Shown: positions 7,160 through 54,823 of the stretch, piece by piece
Position numbering within the stretch: the stretch's first letter is position 1
Layout: the number at the start of each line of letters is the position of its first letter
NCBI RefSeq assembly: GCF_013141825.1
Contig: NZ_RZNH01000022.1
Coordinates: 21,450 to 85,449 of the forward strand
Length of the DNA: 64,000 bases
Reading direction: 5' to 3'
From: Marinifilum caeruleilacunae
GTDB lineage: Bacteria > Bacteroidota > Bacteroidia > Bacteroidales > Marinifilaceae
Program-made: the position numbers and the translations under genes
Notes under the pieces: model-generated
The model's input: only the letters and a program-made list of their open reading frames with translations
Told to the model about the DNA's origin: nothing
The model's database searches: none

Positions 7160-8869
7160 ATGGATGTATTAAAACCAGTTTATACGGAACAGAACGATTG
7201 CCAGGATTGCTACAAGTGTATTCGGGAATGTACTTTAAAGGCAATTAAGGTGGTTAACAATTCAGCACAGATACTTCATAACGATTGTATTTATTGCGGT
7301 ACATGTACACAGATTTGCCCTGTGAATGCCAAAAAGGTTCGAGACGATGTGAAACGCGTAAAGAAGATGATTCTTCGCGGAGAAAGAATTGTTGTTTCAG
7401 TTGCCCCTTCCTTTGTAACGGAGTTCCCTAACCTAAAGGATGAGCAATTTATCGCTGCGCTGAAGGAGTTGGGTTTTGCCGAAGTATCAGAAACAGCGCT
7501 TGGAGCGCAGGAGGTATCCAAACAGGTTTCAAGTTATGTTGATCAGGGTGAGAACGGGGTGTACATATCGTCGGCCTGTCCTTCAATTGTAGAGATGATT
7601 TGTAAACACTATCCTGCTTTCAAGGACAATATCACACCATTTTTATCGCCATTACTGACACATGCCAAGTATCTAAAGCAAAAGTTCCCCGATTCGAAGG
7701 TGGTCTTTATTGGTCCTTGTATTGCCAAAAAGGCCGAAAGCGACGAGTTCCCCAACCTGCTTGATGCATCTTTAACTTTTACGGATCTAAAGAACTGGCT
7801 AGAGGAAGAAAATCTTGATCCATACCTGTTTCCCGAAATTCAAGAAAATAACAGCTTTATTCCTGGTAAAGCCGGACGTGGAATTCTTTACCCGATTGAT
7901 GGTGGAATGATAATGGGGATGAAAGAAAACGTAACAGCAACAGATGCTGTATACATGACTTTCTCGGGAATTGGCAATATTAAAAACGTTCTGAGCGATC
8001 TAAATAAATACCGGAAAACCAATAAATTGTTTTTGGAACTTCTGGCTTGCGAAGGTGGTTGTGTAAACGGACCTGGAGCAGAAAAGGAATATTCAACTGC
8101 TATTAAACGATTAGAGGTAATCAACAAACTGGATTCGGAAGAAGCCGTTGTATTAAATACAGATTTTTCCATTCAAAGAGATTTTGATTCTATTTCGCCT
8201 ATTCCAAAGTACGAACATTCCGAAAATAGTATAAAAGAAGCCTTAACCATGATTGGAAAATACTCCGAAAAGGATGAAATCAACTGTGGTGGATGTGGGT
8301 ACAACTCGTGTAGAGAGTTCGCAGAGGCATATTTGGAAGATCGATCTGAACCCAATATGTGTGTATCATACATGAGAAAAATTGCACAGGATAAATCGTC
8401 GGCCTTGCTTCGTAAAATTCCTTCGGGAGTAGTCATTGTCAACGATGAACTTAAAATTATAGAGGCCAATCAGAGTTTTGCAGGAATATTAGGAGAAGAA
8501 ATAGAGGAGGTTTACCAAACCATCCCAGGCTTGGTTGATGCCGATCTGAAAAAAATTATTCCATTCCATAAGTTATTTGCCTCTGCCTTGTCTACTGGTG
8601 TAGATAATTTGGAAAGAGATATCAAACACGGAAATAAAATGCTGCACGTGAGTGTGTTCAGCATTCATAAAAATAAGATTGTAGGTGCCATTGTTCGCGA
8701 CATGTCTCAACCTTATATTCAAAGGGAAGAGGTAGTAAACAGGGCGAAAACGGTAAACAGGAAAAACCTGGAAACGGTGCAGAAAATTGCTTACCTGCTT
8801 GGTGAAAATGCATCGGAGACTGAAGAAATGCTGAATTCGATAGTTGAATTTTATAAACCGGTGGAATAG
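7160..8869 (+). CDS. hydS: Sensory-type [FeFe]-hydrogenase-like protein with PAS domain (HydS, module 1)
   Basis: 569 residues. Two CxxCxxCxxxC [4Fe-4S] motifs lie at Cys14-24 and Cys43-53. The H-cluster domain follows: L1 motif Ser137-Ser138-Ala139-Cys140-Pro, L2 motif GPC with Cys187, and L3 motif with Cys297 and Cys301 (CEGGC-x2-GP). Alanine at 139 stands where catalytic enzymes have the proton-relay cysteine, as described for sensory HydS of Thermotoga. A further Fe-S domain (Cys376, 379, 384, 401) and a C-terminal PAS domain (about 410-525) complete it. There is no kinase domain. This matches group C (sensory) [FeFe] hydrogenases, and the following phosphatase gene suggests the phosphatase-linked subgroup. 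Likely role: cytoplasmic H2 or redox sensing passed to the phosphatase (inference). First gene of a five-gene run. Confidence 0.85.
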   Translation: MDVLKPVYTEQNDCQDCYKCIRECTLKAIKVVNNSAQILHNDCIYCGTCTQICPVNAKKVRDDVKRVKKMILRGERIVVSVAPSFVTEFPNLKDEQFIAALKELGFAEVSETALGAQEVSKQVSSYVDQGENGVYISSACPSIVEMICKHYPAFKDNITPFLSPLLTHAKYLKQKFPDSKVVFIGPCIAKKAESDEFPNLLDASLTFTDLKNWLEEENLDPYLFPEIQENNSFIPGKAGRGILYPIDGGMIMGMKENVTATDAVYMTFSGIGNIKNVLSDLNKYRKTNKLFLELLACEGGCVNGPGAEKEYSTAIKRLEVINKLDSEEAVVLNTDFSIQRDFDSISPIPKYEHSENSIKEALTMIGKYSEKDEINCGGCGYNSCREFAEAYLEDRSEPNMCVSYMRKIAQDKSSALLRKIPSGVVIVNDELKIIEANQSFAGILGEEIEEVYQTIPGLVDADLKKIIPFHKLFASALSTGVDNLERDIKHGNKMLHVSVFSIHKNKIVGAIVRDMSQPYIQREEVVNRAKTVNRKNLETVQKIAYLLGENASETEEMLNSIVEFYKPVE

Positions 8870-8890
8870 AGCCAAATAATCTTGATTAGG

Positions 8891-10075
8891 ATGCACGATG
8901 ATTTTTACATAGAGGTTGAGTGTCAGCAACGAAACCAATTGGGGCAATCGATTTGTGGAGATGTTTTTATGTCGAGAAAGCTGAAGGACGAAGGCCGAAC
9001 CATTCTTGTGCTTTCCGATGGCCTGGGTAGTGGAGTAAAAGCGAATGTTTTGGCTACCTTAACTTCGTCTATGATCCTGAATTACATGAAGGTGAATAAG
9101 GATATCAGGAAGGCTGCAGAGGTAATTATGAAGACTTTACCGGTTTGTAGCAAACGAAAAGCAGGTTATTCAACTTTTACCATTGTTGAAATAGAGTGTG
9201 ACGGAGAAACCAGGATTATCTGTTATGACAATCCAGATTGCCTAATTCTAAGAGGTTTGGAATCTTTTCAACCAGAATGTGAAGAGTTGCATCCTGAAGG
9301 GGAGGCAAACAAAGGCAAGATTCTTTATTCTTATCGCTTCAAAGCCCAAAAAGAAGATCGTATTATTTTTTGCTCGGATGGCGTTACCAACTCAGGAATG
9401 GGATCGAAAAGATTACCATTTGGTTGGGGAATGGATAATGTTGACCAATTTGCCAGGGGATTGATCAGAAAACAACCTTATATCTCGGCGCGCCGATTGG
9501 GAAATGACATTGTAGAAAGAGCATGTGCAAACAATAGCAATCAGCCTAAAGATGATACTTCATGTGCTGTTTTGTATTACCGCGAACCTCGAAACCTGAT
9601 GATTTGCACAGGACCACCTTACGAAAAAACCAAGGATGCCAAGTTGGTGAGACAAATGCAGGAGTTTGAAGGAACAAAAATTGTGTGTGGTGGTACAACT
9701 GCTGGAATTGTATCCCGCGAATTGCAAAAGCCAATCGAAGTAGATTTAAATGTGTGCGATAGCGAATTGCCACCAGTATCGTTTATCGAGGGAGTTGATT
9801 TGGTTACCGAAGGAATTTTGACCTTGGGGAAAGTGCACAGGATCTTAAACAATTACAATCAAAATACAGTTCTAAGAAACGGGCCGGCCGATCGAATTGT
9901 AAAGCTACTTTTAGAAAGTGATAAGATCTTTATCATTAATGGAACGAAAATAAATGTGGCACATCAGGATCCAAAACTGCCTGTCGAATTAGAAATTAGG
10001 AGAACGGTTGTAAAGAATATCGTTGCACTGCTTGAGGAAAAGTTTTTAAAAGAAGTAGATCTTAGCTATATTTAG
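8891..10075 (+). CDS. SpoIIE-family protein phosphatase (module 1)
   Basis: I place the start at ATG 8891, giving 394 residues, the same length and aligned N-terminus (HDDFYIEVECQQ) as its paralogue downstream; a TTG nine bases earlier is less likely. PP2C/SpoIIE metal-site motifs are present: Asp43 in SDGLGSG, Asp163 in CSDGVTNSGMG, and Asp221-Asp222 in PKDDTSCAVL. The phosphatase fold ends near residue 230; the remaining 160 or so residues (from EPRNLMICTGPP, including CGGTTA and VTEGILTLGK) form an extension shared with the paralogue and of unknown function. It follows the HydS-like gene by 21 bases. Likely role: serine/threonine phosphatase whose activity is set by the neighbouring sensor (inference). 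Substrate unknown. Confidence 0.88.
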   Translation: MHDDFYIEVECQQRNQLGQSICGDVFMSRKLKDEGRTILVLSDGLGSGVKANVLATLTSSMILNYMKVNKDIRKAAEVIMKTLPVCSKRKAGYSTFTIVEIECDGETRIICYDNPDCLILRGLESFQPECEELHPEGEANKGKILYSYRFKAQKEDRIIFCSDGVTNSGMGSKRLPFGWGMDNVDQFARGLIRKQPYISARRLGNDIVERACANNSNQPKDDTSCAVLYYREPRNLMICTGPPYEKTKDAKLVRQMQEFEGTKIVCGGTTAGIVSRELQKPIEVDLNVCDSELPPVSFIEGVDLVTEGILTLGKVHRILNNYNQNTVLRNGPADRIVKLLLESDKIFIINGTKINVAHQDPKLPVELEIRRTVVKNIVALLEEKFLKEVDLSYI

Positions 10076-10105
10076 ACTGCACTAGATATAAAAACAATAA
10101 ACTAA

Positions 10106-10357
10106 ATGGCTGAGAAAATCGAAATCACCATCTGTTTGGGAAGTTCATGCTTTTCAAGAGGGAATGGTAAAGCTCTTAAAGCAATTAATACTTATTTAGA
10201 AGAAAATAAATTAAAAGATAAGGTTTTCTTTCATGGAGAACTTTGTACGGGCAATTGCGCCAAAGGACCAATTCTAAAAATTGATGATGAATTGTATGAA
10301 GAAATTGATCCTGAAGGTGTAATTGAAATATTAAACGGGGTATTTGGCCTTGTTTAA
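10106..10357 (+). CDS. Thioredoxin-like [2Fe-2S] ferredoxin (NuoE-like)
   Basis: An 83-residue protein made only of the thioredoxin-like [2Fe-2S] fold seen at the C-terminus of NuoE/HydC-type subunits. The four ligands are Cys10 and Cys15 (C-x4-C in ICLGSSCFSRG) and Cys47 and Cys51 (C-x3-C in CTGNCAKGP), the spacing expected for this family. It lacks the N-terminal helical part of full-length NuoE. It sits between the two sensor/phosphatase modules, 30 bases after the first phosphatase and 35 bases before the second HydS-like gene, so it probably acts as their electron-transfer partner (inference). Confidence 0.9.
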   Translation: MAEKIEITICLGSSCFSRGNGKALKAINTYLEENKLKDKVFFHGELCTGNCAKGPILKIDDELYEEIDPEGVIEILNGVFGLV

Positions 10358-10392
10358 GAAATCTTTAGTTTCCAACCCTAAAACCCCGTATT

Positions 10393-12246
10393 ATGGCTTT
10401 AATCCTTACAAATAAGGACAAGTGTAATTTAAGTTATACTTGTATTCGCGTTTGTCCTGCCAAAGCAATTAAAATTGAGAATGATTATGCTCATATCATT
10501 GGTAACAGGTGTATTGGCTGTGGAAATTGTGTAACGGTATGTGCACAATCTGCCATCGAATACAGAAGTTCCGAAGAGCAGGTTAAAATGTTGCTTAGTG
10601 GCAACGATCCTGTTGTTGCCATTTGTGATCCGAGTATTTCAGGAGAATTTGATGATATCTTAGATTATCGAAATTTTGTAGGAATGATCCGTGCTTTGGG
10701 CTTCGACTACGTTGTAGAAGCTGCATTTGGCGCCGACCTTGTTGCCTATAAATACAAGAATCTATTCGATAATTTTCATGGTAAATATTACATCTCAACC
10801 AAATGTCCGGCTTTGGTAAATCAGGTCGAAAACTTTCACCCCGATTTGGTTGAAAACCTTGCGCCTATTGTACCACCAGGCGTTGCGATGGCAAAAGTTG
10901 TGCGCAAAAAATATGGGAAGAATGTAAAAATTGTTTCCTTATCGCCATGTGTAGCCAGTAAAAATGATGTGAAAGCTTTTAACGGTTCAGATGGTGATAT
11001 TCATGCCGTACTGAGTTTTGTTGAATTGCGTAAATTATTTAAAGAGTACAAGATTACTGAAAATTCTGTGGAGTTTTCAGAATTCGATCCTCCTTTTGCA
11101 CGATTGGGAGGTTTGTTCCCAATTAGTCATGGTTTGTTCCAGGCTGCCGATATTGATATCAGCATGTTGAATGGTGGCATTATTAGTACAGAAGGAAGAA
11201 ATAACTTTTTGCGATCCATCAATGAGTTTAAAACTCAGCACAACTTGAATCAGCACCTGGATTTATTCTATTGTGAAGGCTGTATTATGGGACCTGGTAC
11301 CTCTGCCGGGGGGCGTAAATTTTCAAGAAGATCGCAGGTAATAAGATATGTAAGAAAGAGACTGAAGACTTTTGACGAAGAGCAGTGGCAAAAAGAAATT
11401 GACGAATACAAAAACCTGGATTTAAACCGTGGATTTAAGTCGAGAGGACAGAGCCTGCCAACCCCTTCGGAAGATGAAGTGCATGCAGTGCTTATCGAAA
11501 TGGGGAAGGAGAAAATTGAGGATCAGTTGGGATGTGGTTCATGCGGTTATGAATCGTGTAGAGAATTTGCCATTGCCAAATGCCAGGGATTGGCTAATTA
11601 CGAAATGTGCTCTTCTTATACCATTAAAAATATGAACTCTGTTATTAAAGAGTTGAATTCGGCAAACGAGAAGTTATCGAAAACAAAAACCGCTTTAAAA
11701 GAATCGGAACGTATTGCCAATGAAGAACGAGTTGTAGCCCAGGAAGCATCGGAAACGGTATCAGCCATGCTACAAAAACTGCCTTCGGGAGTTGTTATCG
11801 TTGATGAGAATTTAAAAGTAATAGAATCGAATAAGAGTTTTGTTGATCTTCTTGGAGAGGAAACCAGGCTGTTGAGTGAAATTATACCAGGTTTAGTAGA
11901 TGCGGATTTAACCAAATTAATCCCTTTTCACAAGCTGTTTTCTACGGTAATTTTAAACGGTGAAGATATCTTGAATAAAGATGTTCATTACGGAAATTCG
12001 CTATTTAATGTATCGGTGTTTACCATTAAAAAGAACAAGATTGTAGGTGGTATTATTCGAGATTTATATGCGCCGGAAGTTCGAAAAGAAGAGGTAATTG
12101 GAAGAGCTAGAGCTGTAATTAAGGAAAACCTCCAAACCGTGCAGCAAATTGCATTTCTGTTGGGAGAGAGTGCTTCCAAAACAGAAAAACTATTGAATTC
12201 AATTATTAAATCTCACACACCGAGTGATGACGAAAAATCTGAATAA
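10393..12246 (+). CDS. HydS-like Fe-S/PAS protein with divergent H-cluster motifs (module 2)
   Basis: 617 residues, same domain order as module 1. The first ferredoxin motif has only three cysteines (Cys11, 17, 21; Ser14 at the second position); the second is complete (Cys40, 43, 46, 50). The H-cluster domain is altered: Lys137 precedes Cys138 in L1, Cys186 lies in SPCVASK (L2), and L3 has Cys294 and Cys297 with only two residues between them instead of three. The Fe-S domain (Cys381, 384, 389) is followed by a helical, probably coiled-coil linker at about 415-455 that module 1 lacks, then a PAS domain to about 570. It may bind a modified cluster or only [4Fe-4S] clusters and sense redox state rather than H2 (inference). 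It overlaps the next gene by one base. Confidence 0.82.
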   Translation: MALILTNKDKCNLSYTCIRVCPAKAIKIENDYAHIIGNRCIGCGNCVTVCAQSAIEYRSSEEQVKMLLSGNDPVVAICDPSISGEFDDILDYRNFVGMIRALGFDYVVEAAFGADLVAYKYKNLFDNFHGKYYISTKCPALVNQVENFHPDLVENLAPIVPPGVAMAKVVRKKYGKNVKIVSLSPCVASKNDVKAFNGSDGDIHAVLSFVELRKLFKEYKITENSVEFSEFDPPFARLGGLFPISHGLFQAADIDISMLNGGIISTEGRNNFLRSINEFKTQHNLNQHLDLFYCEGCIMGPGTSAGGRKFSRRSQVIRYVRKRLKTFDEEQWQKEIDEYKNLDLNRGFKSRGQSLPTPSEDEVHAVLIEMGKEKIEDQLGCGSCGYESCREFAIAKCQGLANYEMCSSYTIKNMNSVIKELNSANEKLSKTKTALKESERIANEERVVAQEASETVSAMLQKLPSGVVIVDENLKVIESNKSFVDLLGEETRLLSEIIPGLVDADLTKLIPFHKLFSTVILNGEDILNKDVHYGNSLFNVSVFTIKKNKIVGGIIRDLYAPEVRKEEVIGRARAVIKENLQTVQQIAFLLGESASKTEKLLNSIIKSHTPSDDEKSE

Positions 12247-13430
12247 TGGAAGATAAATTTCACATTGATATAGATTGCCAGCAGCTGTTTCATCACGGAG
12301 ATATGATATGTGGTGATGTTTTTCTATCGACAAGAATTAAAGAGGAAAACAGAACCATTGCGGTTTTGAGCGATGGAATGGGAAGTGGTGTAAAGGCAAA
12401 TGTTTTGGCCACCTTAACTGCATCTATGGCAATGAATTTTACGGTAGAGCACAAGGATGTTATCTCCATTGCCGAAATCATTATGAATACGCTGCCCGTT
12501 TGTAGTGTTAGAAAGGTGAGCTATTCCACCTTTACAATTATTGATATTGAATACGATGGCACCACCAGAATTATCGAGTTCGATAATCCTTGTTGTGTGG
12601 TGATGAGAGGTTCGGAAGTGTACGATCCGGGTTGGAGAACCATTACCCTGGATAGTGAAGAAAATCAAGGTAAGGAGTTGAGAACCTGTTCTTTCACCGC
12701 CAGAAAAGAGGATAGGATCCTGTTTTGGTCCGATGGCATTATGCAATCGGGAATGGGTAGTCGTGAATTGCCTTTTGGCTGGGGGCACGAAAATGCGCTG
12801 GATTACGTAAAGAATATTGTAAGGTCAACTCCTTTTATATCTGCAAGAAATTTGGGTTTACAGCTGGTGAAAAAGGCCGCTCGGAATGATAATGATCAAC
12901 CCAAAGATGATACGAATGCCGGTGTAATTTACTACCGCGAACCTAGAAAACTATTGATCTGTACAGGTCCTCCTTTTGAAGAAGATAAGGATTCGGAATA
13001 TGCAATGCGCGTATATCATTTTAAAGGAAAGAAAATCATTTGTGGAGGAACTACAGCAGAAATTCTTGCTCGTGAATTGAATTTAAAGTTTGCAGCCGGA
13101 ATGAAAATTACTGATCCTGAATTGCCTCCTGCTTCGTATATGGAAGGGATTAACCTGGTAACAGAAGGGATTTTAACCATTGGTAAGGTGGCCAGAATCC
13201 TTGAGGATTATAATATTGATTACGATTTGGGTGATGGACCTGCAGACCAAATTGTTCACTATTTGTTGCAAAGCGATAAGATCTCCATTATTTCGGGTAC
13301 GCGAATTAATTTTGCACACCAGGATCCGAGTCTGCCTGTTGAGCTTGAAATCAGACGAACTGTAGTGAAAAAGATTGTGAGTTTGTTAGAAGAAAAGTTT
13401 TTAAAGGATGTAAGCTTGACTTTTATTTAA
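12246..13430 (+). CDS. SpoIIE-family protein phosphatase (module 2)
   Basis: 394 residues, a clear paralogue of the phosphatase at 8891. Metal-site motifs are Asp43 in SDGMGSG, the SDGIMQSGMG block, and PKDDTNAGVIYY. It has the same C-terminal extension of about 160 residues with TGPPFEEDKD, CGGTTAEI, VTEGILTIGKV and a shared tail RRTVVKKIVSLLEEKFLK. The start ATG overlaps the stop of the second HydS-like gene (TAATG), indicating translational coupling and supporting one sensor to one phosphatase pairing. Its end overlaps the convergent receiver gene by four bases. Target proteins are unknown; STAS-type anti-anti-sigma factors are usual SpoIIE substrates but none is adjacent. Confidence 0.88.
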   Translation: MEDKFHIDIDCQQLFHHGDMICGDVFLSTRIKEENRTIAVLSDGMGSGVKANVLATLTASMAMNFTVEHKDVISIAEIIMNTLPVCSVRKVSYSTFTIIDIEYDGTTRIIEFDNPCCVVMRGSEVYDPGWRTITLDSEENQGKELRTCSFTARKEDRILFWSDGIMQSGMGSRELPFGWGHENALDYVKNIVRSTPFISARNLGLQLVKKAARNDNDQPKDDTNAGVIYYREPRKLLICTGPPFEEDKDSEYAMRVYHFKGKKIICGGTTAEILARELNLKFAAGMKITDPELPPASYMEGINLVTEGILTIGKVARILEDYNIDYDLGDGPADQIVHYLLQSDKISIISGTRINFAHQDPSLPVELEIRRTVVKKIVSLLEEKFLKDVSLTFI

Positions 13431-20593: not shown

Positions 20594-23131
20594 CTACGAT
20601 ATTTCCTTACTCACAATATCCTTAAAGGAATATTGATACTCTTCGTTGTAGAATTTTAAATACAGTTTCCTGTAATGCTCAAATGTTTCGATTGCCAGAC
20701 TGTGTTTGCCTTGAGTAGCGAGCAGGCAACATTTAGTTTTTAAGGCAGTTTCGTTCATTTGGTCAAATTCAAATATTACATTTGAAATTGCCAGGGCGAT
20801 GACTTTATCGGTTTTAGAATCTTTAATGATTTCTTCCAGAGTACCAACAATCATGCCTGTGTTAAAATCTTTAAATGAATCCAGCCATTCTGGAAAAATA
20901 TCTCTTAGCATGGCACCACGCTGAAGGATAATAATTATTTCTGCAAGGTTTTCAATTTTTCCTTGTTCACGAATGGATTTGATTCCTTTCTGCACATAGT
21001 CAAGATCACAGAAAATATTTTCAGGAAGTGTAATTTTCCAGTAATTGTTGTCGAAAATAATCTCGGTTCCAGGTAAATCTTCAAGAATACCGCGTAGTTT
21101 TTTAATATTAACACCACGGTTGTTTTTGGCTTTACTTTCCGATTTATCGGGCCACAAATATTCCTGAATTCTCTTGGAAGAGATTCCTTTTCCTTCGTTA
21201 ATAGTATTCAAAAGAATAAGCAGGAACAATTCCTTAAGTGTGGGGCTAAATCGATAAGTGATATCTTTTGCTTTCTCATCAAACACCTGGAAACCACCAA
21301 ACATGATAATGGCATTGTTTTTTGGTATTTCGTAATCTGATATTGGAGCTTCAAAAATATCTGGTGATGTATATACTTTATACTCACTTTTGTTTTTCTT
21401 CTCTTTTTCCTTACGGATTTTTCTCACAATTAAAGCGACAAAAAGGACAAGAACAACAGCCAGTATGGTATAGAAAATTTTGACCGGCATTGGTAGGCCA
21501 ACACCGTTAATGTTAAAGTCATCTTTATTTCCTGGTTCGTAACTTATGGTGTAGATATTTACCTCATGGGTCTCATCTTCAGTTTGATGAGAAGTGATGG
21601 CAATCAACTTATTTTCACTGTTCCAGTAATATAGATCGGCAAAGGACTCAATATCAAGAAAATTGTATGGTATGCTGTCGCCAATAAAAACAATTCTTGG
21701 TTCGTGAACAAATCCTTTAATTGCTCTTAGATAGGTATTTTGTTTAGTCGATGGAAACATTAATGTGTAGAAGCTACTGTCGCTTGCATTGAGCTTCATG
21801 CTATTTATTGGCAGGAACTGGAATTGTTCGTCACACTCGTAATCCCACAGGTGCTTAATTTTTTTCTTCTCGAAATCAATTTTGTACAAATCGTAATAGA
21901 ATTCCTTGCCTAAAATTTGCTTCCCCATAGAGTTACCCAATCCCCCAAATAGGAAAACTGTATTTGGGTTTTTTTCCGATTTTCCAAGAGATGCAAGATA
22001 CCTGGGCTGAATGGTGTCGCCAGAAAATTCAATTTTATTCCAGCTGTTTTGCTCAGTGTCAAACGACAGGATATCATTGAAATAAGAATAATATCCATAT
22101 CCACCAATGGTAGTAATTTTGCCGGTTTCGGGATGTAATAATTTGTTGTGATGCCAAAATCTTGGAGCATCATGAACCGAAGATTCAACATTTCGACTCC
22201 AGGTATTAGTGTTTGTATCCAGAGTAGATATCAAATTTTTGTTGAAACTGTAGGTGCTGATATTTCCATTCTTGTCATAAATAATTTGCTGCGCCTTTTC
22301 GAAACATGGAAAACCCTTTACTTCTTCCTTCAGTTTCGATAGGGTTTTGTTTAATGGATTGAACGATTGAATACTTCCATCCATGAAAATGAAATTGATT
22401 AGCTCTTTTTCTTTGTCGTAGAGCAAAGAGGGAAGTGTTGGGAAATTTAAAGATTTGATTTTTACCCATTCGTTATGGTAATCCACAACCCAGTCAGGAT
22501 TAAATACCTTGGCCGACTTGCTCGAGAGTACATCCTTCACCAATGAGTTGTTTGTCTTTTTTAGAGGCCAAAGATGTCTTGGTGCTCCATCAATTCTTAC
22601 ACTAATATCCTTTACGGATATGGATGGAACTTCATCGATAAAAAATCCATATTTATTGACAACACCAAGCGATAGTGCAAAGTCCGAATTTTGAGGAAAA
22701 CTGATGTCCGATTCTAATTTTTTATCTTCAAATAAGAGATTAATTTTATCATTAACCGCATCTATATGTATCTCAAAATCAATCCATCTGTTGTTTTTGA
22801 TTTTTTCATCCTCCAGGTTAAGATGAAATTTCGTTGTGCGCTTGTTATGAATGACAAAAATATCTGGTTTGCGATAGGTAACCTGTATTAAATTTTTGCT
22901 TTGATTTTCTTTTAAGGATAAGATTTCACCATAGTGGGTTTCCGATTCACGAAATGATAGCTTAAAGTGAATCGTAAAATCGGTGATATAGGATATGTTG
23001 CCATTGTGGGTAATATCTATACCAGTCCTATTCTCCTTGGTTACTTCGTTGGACTTAAAGTATATGCCATGATCTGCCATCAGATCAGGTACAAAAAATA
23101 GTAAGAGAATTAAGCAATTTATTAATCGCAT
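20594..23131 (-). CDS. Membrane-spanning regulator: LamG-like/kelch-like sensor fused to a SARP-like DNA-binding domain
   Basis: 845 residues. A signal peptide (ends LMADHG) is followed by a LamG/concanavalin-like region (about 20-200) and a kelch-like propeller region (about 330-450, with GGYGYYSYFND and FLFGGLGNS). One transmembrane helix lies at about 548-570 (FYTILAVVLVLFVALIV) with a basic stop. The cytoplasmic part holds an OmpR/PhoB-type winged helix (about 605-705, with TLKELFLLILL and NNRGVNIKKLRGIL) and a TPR-like bacterial transcriptional activator domain (about 715-845), the arrangement of SARP/AfsR activators. It is divergent from susC, so it probably senses a glycan in the periplasm and controls this locus (inference), replacing the hybrid two-component or ECF sigma/anti-sigma systems usual in Bacteroides PULs. 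Confidence 0.78.
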   Translation of the reverse strand: MRLINCLILLLFFVPDLMADHGIYFKSNEVTKENRTGIDITHNGNISYITDFTIHFKLSFRESETHYGEILSLKENQSKNLIQVTYRKPDIFVIHNKRTTKFHLNLEDEKIKNNRWIDFEIHIDAVNDKINLLFEDKKLESDISFPQNSDFALSLGVVNKYGFFIDEVPSISVKDISVRIDGAPRHLWPLKKTNNSLVKDVLSSKSAKVFNPDWVVDYHNEWVKIKSLNFPTLPSLLYDKEKELINFIFMDGSIQSFNPLNKTLSKLKEEVKGFPCFEKAQQIIYDKNGNISTYSFNKNLISTLDTNTNTWSRNVESSVHDAPRFWHHNKLLHPETGKITTIGGYGYYSYFNDILSFDTEQNSWNKIEFSGDTIQPRYLASLGKSEKNPNTVFLFGGLGNSMGKQILGKEFYYDLYKIDFEKKKIKHLWDYECDEQFQFLPINSMKLNASDSSFYTLMFPSTKQNTYLRAIKGFVHEPRIVFIGDSIPYNFLDIESFADLYYWNSENKLIAITSHQTEDETHEVNIYTISYEPGNKDDFNINGVGLPMPVKIFYTILAVVLVLFVALIVRKIRKEKEKKNKSEYKVYTSPDIFEAPISDYEIPKNNAIIMFGGFQVFDEKAKDITYRFSPTLKELFLLILLNTINEGKGISSKRIQEYLWPDKSESKAKNNRGVNIKKLRGILEDLPGTEIIFDNNYWKITLPENIFCDLDYVQKGIKSIREQGKIENLAEIIIILQRGAMLRDIFPEWLDSFKDFNTGMIVGTLEEIIKDSKTDKVIALAISNVIFEFDQMNETALKTKCCLLATQGKHSLAIETFEHYRKLYLKFYNEEYQYSFKDIVSKEIS

Positions 23132-53989: not shown

Positions 53990-54823
53990 TTACCTATGAT
54001 TTGATTCCAAGTTCAGATGATTTTGCTTTTTCGTTTCTGTAGGTGAATAGTGTCTGCTTAGCCATTTGCTCAAACCATCCATGCCCGGGAACAACACTCT
54101 TTCGTTGATGTTTACCTGGTCAAGTTTATCTCGTATTTCCCATTTCATTTCGGCTGGAATCCTGATTCTAAAATACAATTCAGGCTTATCCATTAACCAT
54201 GAATTTAAAACGGAGGTAGAATGAGACATGAATGTAAAAATGGCATATTGGTTCACAATTCTATCATCTAAAGATGGAGGTTCGAAGGCAACCACAAAAT
54301 CAGATTCTTCTTTCGAAAGTTCTTTTAAATCGCGATACAATTCATGAAGCATCTCTATGGTGAAGCTGTTTGATCCTACCTGGTTCAGCTTGGTATGAAG
54401 TTTCTCTGGCAAATAGTTTTTTAGGTTCTCATAGTTCAGGGCCCATATTACACCATCTTTATGATATTTTTCGATTTCGGCTGTTGCAAAATGCAGTGCC
54501 ACGTAGGGTGAATAGGTCCAATCCAGGAGTCGCGTAGGCAAACCATGATGCTGCGCCAGTGCAAGCCATTCCCAATCCGATTTGTTGTTGATATCAGGAC
54601 GGAAGGAATATTTTTTAAAGTTACGTAACAGGTGAAACTCTAACTCCTCATACGGACCTCTCAGACGAATCAAAGAGGTTTTCAATTGGTAATCAAACTT
54701 TGATAAGCCCCTGTAGATATAGGGAGAACGTGTCCTGTTTATTCTTTCGTTAAACGAATCGGTAAAAAGCACTTCCTGTAATTCTGACCACGAAGTTGGG
54801 ATGATTTCTTTTTTGAGTTGCAT
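53990..54823 (-). CDS. FRG-domain protein
   Basis: 277 residues. The FRG domain spans about residues 10-130 and shows its defining pattern: SWSELQEVL, the aromatic-Arg-Gly motif IYRGL near residue 37, LRRF-type LLRNFKKYS, EWLALAQHHGLPTRLLDWTYSPYVALHFA near 85-113. FRG domains are found in many bacteria and phages, often near mobile or defence loci, but their biochemical activity is unknown. The C-terminal part (about 140-277) has no recognised motif. It is the upstream gene of a likely pair with the STAS-like protein. Confidence 0.85.
   Translation of the reverse strand: MQLKKEIIPTSWSELQEVLFTDSFNERINRTRSPYIYRGLSKFDYQLKTSLIRLRGPYEELEFHLLRNFKKYSFRPDINNKSDWEWLALAQHHGLPTRLLDWTYSPYVALHFATAEIEKYHKDGVIWALNYENLKNYLPEKLHTKLNQVGSNSFTIEMLHELYRDLKELSKEESDFVVAFEPPSLDDRIVNQYAIFTFMSHSTSVLNSWLMDKPELYFRIRIPAEMKWEIRDKLDQVNINERVLFPGMDGLSKWLSRHYSPTETKKQNHLNLESNHR

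Follow-up and report, generated by a model that had tools for sequence, protein, structure and literature searches.

Five-gene unit of two sensor–phosphatase pairs

The analysed stretch of Marinifilum caeruleilacunae DNA (64,000 nucleotides of contig NZ_RZNH01000022.1; hereafter the window, to which all positions refer) carries five forward-strand genes at positions 7160–13430 that encode two HydS-like sensory [FeFe] hydrogenases, each followed by a SpoIIE-type phosphatase, and a small ferredoxin. HydS1 (7160–8869, 569 amino acids) is followed by SpoIIE1, a PPM-type Ser/Thr phosphatase (8891–10075, 394 amino acids from the ATG taken as its start; the open reading frame listing gives a TTG further upstream). 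Next come a thioredoxin-like [2Fe-2S] ferredoxin of 83 amino acids (10106–10357; PF01257, 2Fe-2S_thioredx), which resembles the C-terminal part of NuoE, HydS2 (10393–12246, 617 amino acids) and a second PPM-type Ser/Thr phosphatase, SpoIIE2 (12246–13430, 394 amino acids). The intergenic gaps are 21, 30 and 35 bases long and the start of SpoIIE2 overlaps the stop of HydS2 by one base, so that the five genes look like one operon. A promoter scan was uninformative (22 sites compared with 21.6 expected in shuffled sequences).

Pfam searches identified Fe_hyd_lg_C in HydS1 (6e-46) and HydS2 (3e-35), and in both sensors N-terminal 4Fe-4S motifs (two in HydS1) and the C-terminal FeS motif PF04060. 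The tail of HydS1 (residues 412–569 approximately; 8393–8866) scored above the cut-off for PAS_8 (23.4 versus 21.8 bits). The tail of HydS2 (residues 455–617 approximately; 11755–12243) remained below it with 19.2 bits, but aligned with the HydS1 tail nevertheless. No kinase domain was detected by Pfam in either sensor. PF07228 spans residues 32–227 and 34–223 of the two phosphatases, whose last 165 residues or so matched no Pfam family at an E-value of 1. SpoIIE1 and SpoIIE2 are 58% identical, and the sensors share 35% identity overall and 27% in the H-domain. An earlier sequence-only reading of this DNA had described two HydS-like/SpoIIE pairs with a NuoE-like ferredoxin and sensors lacking a kinase domain, which the open reading frames and the Pfam matches bear out.

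Scanning genome contigs with HydS1 yielded 33 loci. Nineteen of these carry Marinifilaceae names in their record titles (Marinifilum, Labilibaculum, Ancylomarina and, in two cases, Marinifilaceae bacterium); one of the nineteen, L201, is a contig-end fragment. Marinifilum matches were 87–95% identical to HydS1. The order HydS1–SpoIIE1–ferredoxin–HydS2–SpoIIE2 was found in all 18 complete Marinifilaceae loci; the tandem is therefore not a chance arrangement, and the co-occurrence of the two modules, on which the sequence-only reading had staked its proposal, holds in this family. The other 14 loci came from one Bacillota metagenome-assembled genome, one Holophaga metagenome-assembled genome and twelve Lentisphaeria, Victivallales or rumen records. 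Their HydS proteins have the canonical C-x3-C spacing in the L3 loop throughout, and the eight loci examined contained a ferredoxin-like match, HydS and a SpoIIE match in this order, with at least one HydABC-type match nearby.

The ratio of non-synonymous to synonymous differences (pN/pS) of the four large genes was 0.03–0.06 in comparison with two of the loci (L171, from Marinifilum flexuosum DSM 21950, and L175) and 0.06–0.21 in comparison with three more distant ones (L186, L178 and L202), for which synonymous differences are near saturation. These values show purifying selection on the four genes.

H-cluster site of the two sensors

The H-cluster cysteines C140, C187, C297 and C301 of HydS1 are kept in all 19 Marinifilaceae rows of the alignment. 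Three residues after the L2 cysteine, HydS1 has a lysine (K190, codon 7727–7729) that is present in all 11 Marinifilaceae rows aligned there. It is equivalent to CpI K358, which we take to be the lysine anchoring a cyanide ligand of the diiron subsite. HydS2 has a serine at this position (S189, codon 10957–10959), as do the 11 aligned Marinifilaceae rows, and its L3 loop reads C294-x2-C297 instead of C-x3-C (11272–11283). At the positions of CpI C299, M353 and M497 (numbering from PMC8163306 and PMC10055695), HydS2 carries Lys137 (Lys in all 19 Marinifilaceae rows), Ser and Phe. At the C299 position HydS1 has an alanine, which it shares with TmHydS of Thermotoga maritima by published description.

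Relatives were assigned to type 1 or type 2 by the best BLAST match of their HydS to HydS1 or HydS2 of the window. Residues were counted in 93 relatives outside the Marinifilaceae tandem set (25 of type 1 and 68 of type 2), leaving out cassettes with a HydS outside 530–700 residues or a phosphatase of less than 380. In type 1, all four H-cluster cysteines were kept in 25/25 and the lysine in 24/25. In type 2, the four cysteines were complete in 52/68, and the lysine position was occupied by A (33), S (18), N (10), T (5), Y (1) and K (1). Among other groups, the lysine is kept in kinase-linked HydS (9/9), group B (23/23) and group D (8/8). The other clusters of type 2 are retained: the C-terminal FeS cysteines in 68/68 and those of the second N-terminal cluster in 67/68, the remaining one being an alignment gap. 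Even in the 16 type 2 members without at least one H-cluster cysteine, the cysteines of the second N-terminal and of the C-terminal cluster (eight checked) were kept in 16/16 each, and the second cysteine of the first N-terminal cluster in 12. Loss of the lysine at the H2 site is thus lineage-wide in type 2 and not a peculiarity of one gene. The sequence-only reading, which had noted one altered member, was right in this, but the alteration belongs to the type 2 lineage as a whole.

Judged from these residues, HydS1 may be an H2 sensor and HydS2 an H2-blind Fe–S redox sensor, each setting its own phosphatase via the PAS tail; we consider the chances of this reading to be about even. Several observations weigh against it. 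HydS2 keeps four H-cluster cysteines, with C-x2-C spacing, in 19/19 Marinifilaceae rows, and therefore a [4Fe-4S] cubane, perhaps even the whole H-cluster, may still bind. Ser14 replaces one cysteine of the first N-terminal cluster of HydS2 in 19/19 Marinifilaceae; the same position is also Ser in 13 of the 68 type 2 relatives. The lysine is likewise missing from 9 of 44 HydA-type proteins encoded next to cassettes, three of which have Arg, so its absence alone does not prove loss of function unless these proteins are dead too. Finally, a literature search retrieved no text on the role of the lysine equivalent to CpI K358.

Some of these observations fit another explanation, whereby both HydS proteins are H2 sensors of different affinity and a retuned H-cluster in HydS2 widens the dynamic range of the pair. 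The conserved cysteines and the lysine-deficient HydA-type neighbours would agree with this. So would the kinase-linked HydS of Bacteroidales, which have the same C-x2-C spacing in the three sequences compared and otherwise look intact, with four H-cluster cysteines in 9/9, and the variation around the H-cluster site described for sensory enzymes (PMC10055695). However, loss of the lysine in 67 and of H-cluster cysteines in 16 of the 68 type 2 relatives, while the other clusters are retained, makes a retuned HydS2 appear rather doubtful.

At three loci (L087, L114 and L130), HydA-like neighbours without the lysine occur together with a HydS2 without three or four of the H-cluster cysteines. 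Possibly, these are whole loci giving up H2 chemistry, with HydABC-like complexes that may operate without it.

The missing site residues and the missing N-terminal cluster cysteine might also indicate that module 2 is a remnant in decay, leaving module 1 as the only working one. pN/pS was in fact slightly higher for HydS2 than for HydS1 in the comparisons with the two nearest loci (0.057 versus 0.047 and 0.062 versus 0.056). On the other hand, all values are low, HydS2 had the smaller value of the two sensors in the remaining three comparisons, and SpoIIE2 stayed below SpoIIE1 in all five, although synonymous sites are near saturation. The catalytic aspartates are kept in 19/19 Marinifilaceae for both SpoIIE1 and SpoIIE2, and type 2 is retained across the order. 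Decay of module 2 is therefore highly improbable. The four ferredoxin cysteines are also present in 19/19 Marinifilaceae. Among the relatives, the phosphatase aspartates, in columns that we chose as presumably corresponding to the PPM motifs, were present in 68/68 of type 2; in type 1 one position was kept in 24/25 and the others in 25/25.

Two cassette lineages and their history

In a class sample of 395 genomes, three contained the phosphatase, namely this genome and two others from its order; in an order sample, 137 of 393 did. We selected some of the places listed and retrieved 103 stretches surrounding them, which together with the window gave 104 loci with 105 SpoIIE genes. HydS was located just upstream of 99 of them, leaving six without. 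Three phosphatase copies for which no HydS was found upstream (L040, L157 and L159) belong to three genomes of a single family (f7) of the order.

Neighbours were counted within 6 kb; short contigs lower the numbers, and the window is included in both totals. Among 28 type 1 cassettes, 22 had a group B hydrogenase nearby, one had HydABC-type genes and five had neither; for two of the 22, the HydC label was also given to a ferredoxin-like protein of 84 residues. Among 71 type 2 cassettes, 52 had HydABC-type genes, 19 had neither and none had a group B hydrogenase. Type 1 and type 2 stand side by side only in the window among the 96 fetched loci with a cassette. Two other arrangements were seen: two successive type 1 HydS–SpoIIE pairs followed by a group B hydrogenase, which represent a doubling of independent origin (L109), and two type 2 cassettes facing away from each other (L097).

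The usual type 2 unit in relatives is ferredoxin–HydS2–SpoIIE2. The usual type 1 unit is ferredoxin–HydS1–SpoIIE1, often with another small ferredoxin and the group B hydrogenase after it. Because of this cassette order, the ferredoxin of the window is most likely part of module 2, and module 1 would have neither a ferredoxin nor a hydrogenase of its own. This departs from the sequence-only reading, in which the ferredoxin lay between two equal modules.

In a tree of 49 H-domains, HydS2 heads were sister to kinase-linked heads (support 100/97), with type 1 heads outside this pair (98/89 for all three together). The HydS1 head of the window fell inside the type 1 clade (100/99). A simple tandem duplication was rejected because the two heads are only 27% identical and belong to different clades, each of which spans several families of the order. 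The doubled arrangement described in the sequence-only reading is thus no simple duplication; the HydS2 head is sister to kinase-linked heads, and in relatives the hydrogenases encoded near the two types differ.

PAS tails of types 1 and 2 are 39–44% identical, compared with 28% for the heads. Across 115 cassettes, tail distances were correlated with phosphatase distances with a partial r of 0.68 once head distance was controlled for, compared with 0.41 for head distances controlled for tail distance; within type 2 alone the values were 0.66 and 0.28. This fits, but does not show, a contact between the PAS tail and the phosphatase, and lends some support to the earlier suggestion of one signalling unit split into sensor and phosphatase. 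Counting against it, the tail performed hardly better than the head within type 1 alone (0.63 versus 0.57).

Two further histories were considered. A domain or partner swap in module 1 is kept as a hint only: SpoIIE1 of Marinifilaceae falls into the type 2 phosphatase clade (99/98) while the HydS1 head is of type 1. The approximately unbiased (AU) test did not reject a plain history for SpoIIE1 (p 0.065), the corresponding value for the PAS tree was p 0.196, and 21 diagnostic residues were type 1-like, type 2-like and other in seven cases each. We make no claim that type 2 arose as a chimera by joining a kinase-type head to a type 1 tail, because replacement of an ancestral PAS tail in the kinase-linked lineage explains the data equally well.

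Known systems and the putative function of the tandem

HydDB lists a putative phosphatase-linked group C3, in which an H-domain protein with PAS lies beside a Ser/Thr phosphatase, as possible H2 sensors. The SpoIIE (PF07228) gene adjoining each HydS of the window conforms to this description, while the apparent H2 blindness of the HydS2 lineage does not; assignment to C3 is made here by gene neighbour. Among known systems, the best match is hfsABCD of Thermoanaerobacterium, compared by published description. It comprises a PAS-type sensory [FeFe] hydrogenase (HfsB), a serine-phosphatase-like protein (HfsC) and a hydrogenase (HfsD) (PMC11837493, PMC8924675), the last assigned to group B by Morra 2022 (PMC8924675). 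Deletion of hfsB results in a high ethanol yield (PMC11837493, PMC8924675), and hfs deletion in lower expression of other hydrogenase genes (PMC8924675). Shared features are the order of a PAS-containing HydS and a phosphatase and, for most type 1 relatives, a downstream hydrogenase of group B. In contrast to hfsABCD, the window contains two units of two lineages, one of them with an altered H-cluster site, and no adjoining hfsD-like gene. Apart from HydS1 and HydS2, no Fe_hyd_lg_C match was found on this contig, and the window is therefore hfs-like rather than an hfs operon.

Compared by published description with TmHydS, a group C (M2f) enzyme with two N-terminal clusters, a C-terminal Cx2Cx4Cx16C motif and PAS (PMC8163306, PMC10055695), HydS1 shows the full architecture and the H-cluster ligand and diiron residues. 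HydS2 shows nearly the full architecture, departing from it at S14 and by its sub-threshold PAS score. TmHydS binds the H-cluster experimentally; HydS2 differs at C299, M353, M497 and the lysine, and has the four cysteines with changed spacing. Kinase-linked (C1-like) HydS, the sister group of the HydS2 head, differ from HydS2 in having a kinase tail instead of PAS and in keeping the lysine. TamHydS (group D, M2e) has neither PAS nor phosphatase, so the two sensors of the window with their PAS-type tails do not belong to its group. The C-terminal cluster of TamHydS is reported to be unresponsive to H2 (PMC13104023), a finding that weakens simple models with this cluster as the carrier of an H2 signal.

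PAS-type sensory hydrogenases, usually upstream of trimeric hydrogenases, have been tabulated for Clostridia and Thermotoga (PMC3561251), and the need to study sensory hydrogenases in the gut has been pointed out (PMC12578642). In the literature searched, which left most subscription journals outside, neither a tandem nor an H2-blind phosphatase-linked lineage was described in the accessible text. The system was originally put forward as poorly described. This applies to the pairing and to the apparently H2-blind HydS2 lineage, which are new, but not to the single cassette, which is already known (C3, hfs).

The genome (5.27 Mb, 202 contigs) encodes six proteins with Fe_hyd_lg_C. Two HydA proteins (contigs C95 and C185) exceed the NCBIfam group A and A6 cut-offs and have adjoining HydB- and HydC-like genes. 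A protein on contig C99 exceeds the cut-off for monomeric B1 (525 versus 450 bits) and was called group B. A 454-amino-acid protein on C185 with a C-terminal FeS motif and no PAS, encoded beside a HATPase gene, is group D-like by the published description of TamHydS. HydF and HydG were found as well. The absence of a hydrogenase noted from the sequence alone therefore holds for the neighbourhood on the contig but not for the genome.

On the basis of these comparisons, we propose that the operon combines two sensor/phosphatase units of the hfs type. HydS1 would carry the H-cluster and report H2, and HydS2, presumably without a working diiron subsite, would report the Fe–S redox state, with the 83-amino-acid [2Fe-2S] ferredoxin as its likely electron partner. 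The PAS tail of each sensor would set its own phosphatase. Both phosphatases would then undo serine phosphorylation in a pathway tuning the HydABC and group B hydrogenases, which are now encoded elsewhere. In this way, the paired modules may let the cell tell H2 from its general redox state, in line with the H2/redox dual sensing originally raised as a possibility.

A candidate for the opposing kinase is an RsbW-like ATPase encoded on C185 (L023) in a cluster with DRTGG proteins, the group D-like sensor, a PHP protein, ferredoxin genes and HydABC, with HydG nearby. The RsbW-like gene was present in 95 of the 137 genomes with the phosphatase compared with 25 of the 256 without it (Fisher p 2e-34, a test that ignores shared ancestry). 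This association is weakened by its absence from 42 of the 137, and among the matches listed the two genes lay within 6 kb of each other in only 7 of the 95 genomes (G251, G441, G462, G530, G623, G652 and G761). An RsbW-like kinase as a required partner was rejected on these grounds, and because of the 42 genomes lacking it, it is not the sole opponent.

Alternatively, modules freed from hydrogenase operons might report redox state or H2 to a general stress or growth pathway via a STAS/RsbW set. No hydrogenase gene adjoins the modules of the window, and the genome encodes three further SpoIIE phosphatases as well as short STAS proteins and another short HATPase_c_2 protein. Yet hydrogenases adjoin 22/28 type 1 and 52/71 type 2 cassettes, and hydrogenase gene expression falls on hfs deletion (PMC8924675), which makes a stress or growth output unlikely. 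On the contig of the window, no STAS or HATPase_c_2 match was found, and the arrangement is not that of an RsbU/SpoIIE-style operon.

Returning to HydS1 as H2 sensor and HydS2 as redox sensor, we tentatively suggest that the H2-blind HydS2 is kept as a reference channel, by which the H2 reading of HydS1 would be corrected for the Fe–S redox state, although the odds are probably against it. A similar pairing is seen elsewhere in Bacteroidales. Of the 13 type 2 loci whose sequence extends far enough past a divergent HydA, 11 encode a kinase-linked HydS after HydA. The blind, phosphatase-linked HydS2 thus often lies opposite a sighted, kinase-linked sensor at the end of a divergent HydABC operon.

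The signalling role of sensory [FeFe] hydrogenases still counts as putative. The operon offers a natural comparison, since the same kind of PAS tail and phosphatase occurs with the H2 site present and apparently absent, and it yields the prediction that the PAS tail contacts the phosphatase. In Bacteroidales, some of the genes that would receive a sensory hydrogenase annotation may encode proteins that do not sense H2, and two distinct signals could govern the H2 output of such anaerobes.

Several other genes of the window were recorded. A stand-alone response-regulator receiver (PF00072; 13427–13807, reverse strand) is convergent with SpoIIE2. An opposite-strand open reading frame of 126–143 amino acids, matched by length and place only, follows SpoIIE2 in Marinifilum and Labilibaculum loci and by the same comparison is not present in the Ancylomarina loci or in L185. 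The region 17182–46055 looks like a locus for the utilization of mannose-rich glycans, with one Pfam match each for ROK, GH92, GH125, GH65, GH97 and GH130 and, by eye, a LacI-type regulator and a SusC/SusD-like pair. Within it, an 845-amino-acid protein (20594–23131, reverse strand) has Kelch-type propeller matches and a C-terminal part that by eye resembles a transcription activator. An FRG-domain protein (PF08867) is encoded at 53990–54823 on the reverse strand; this domain is often found in mobile or defence contexts.

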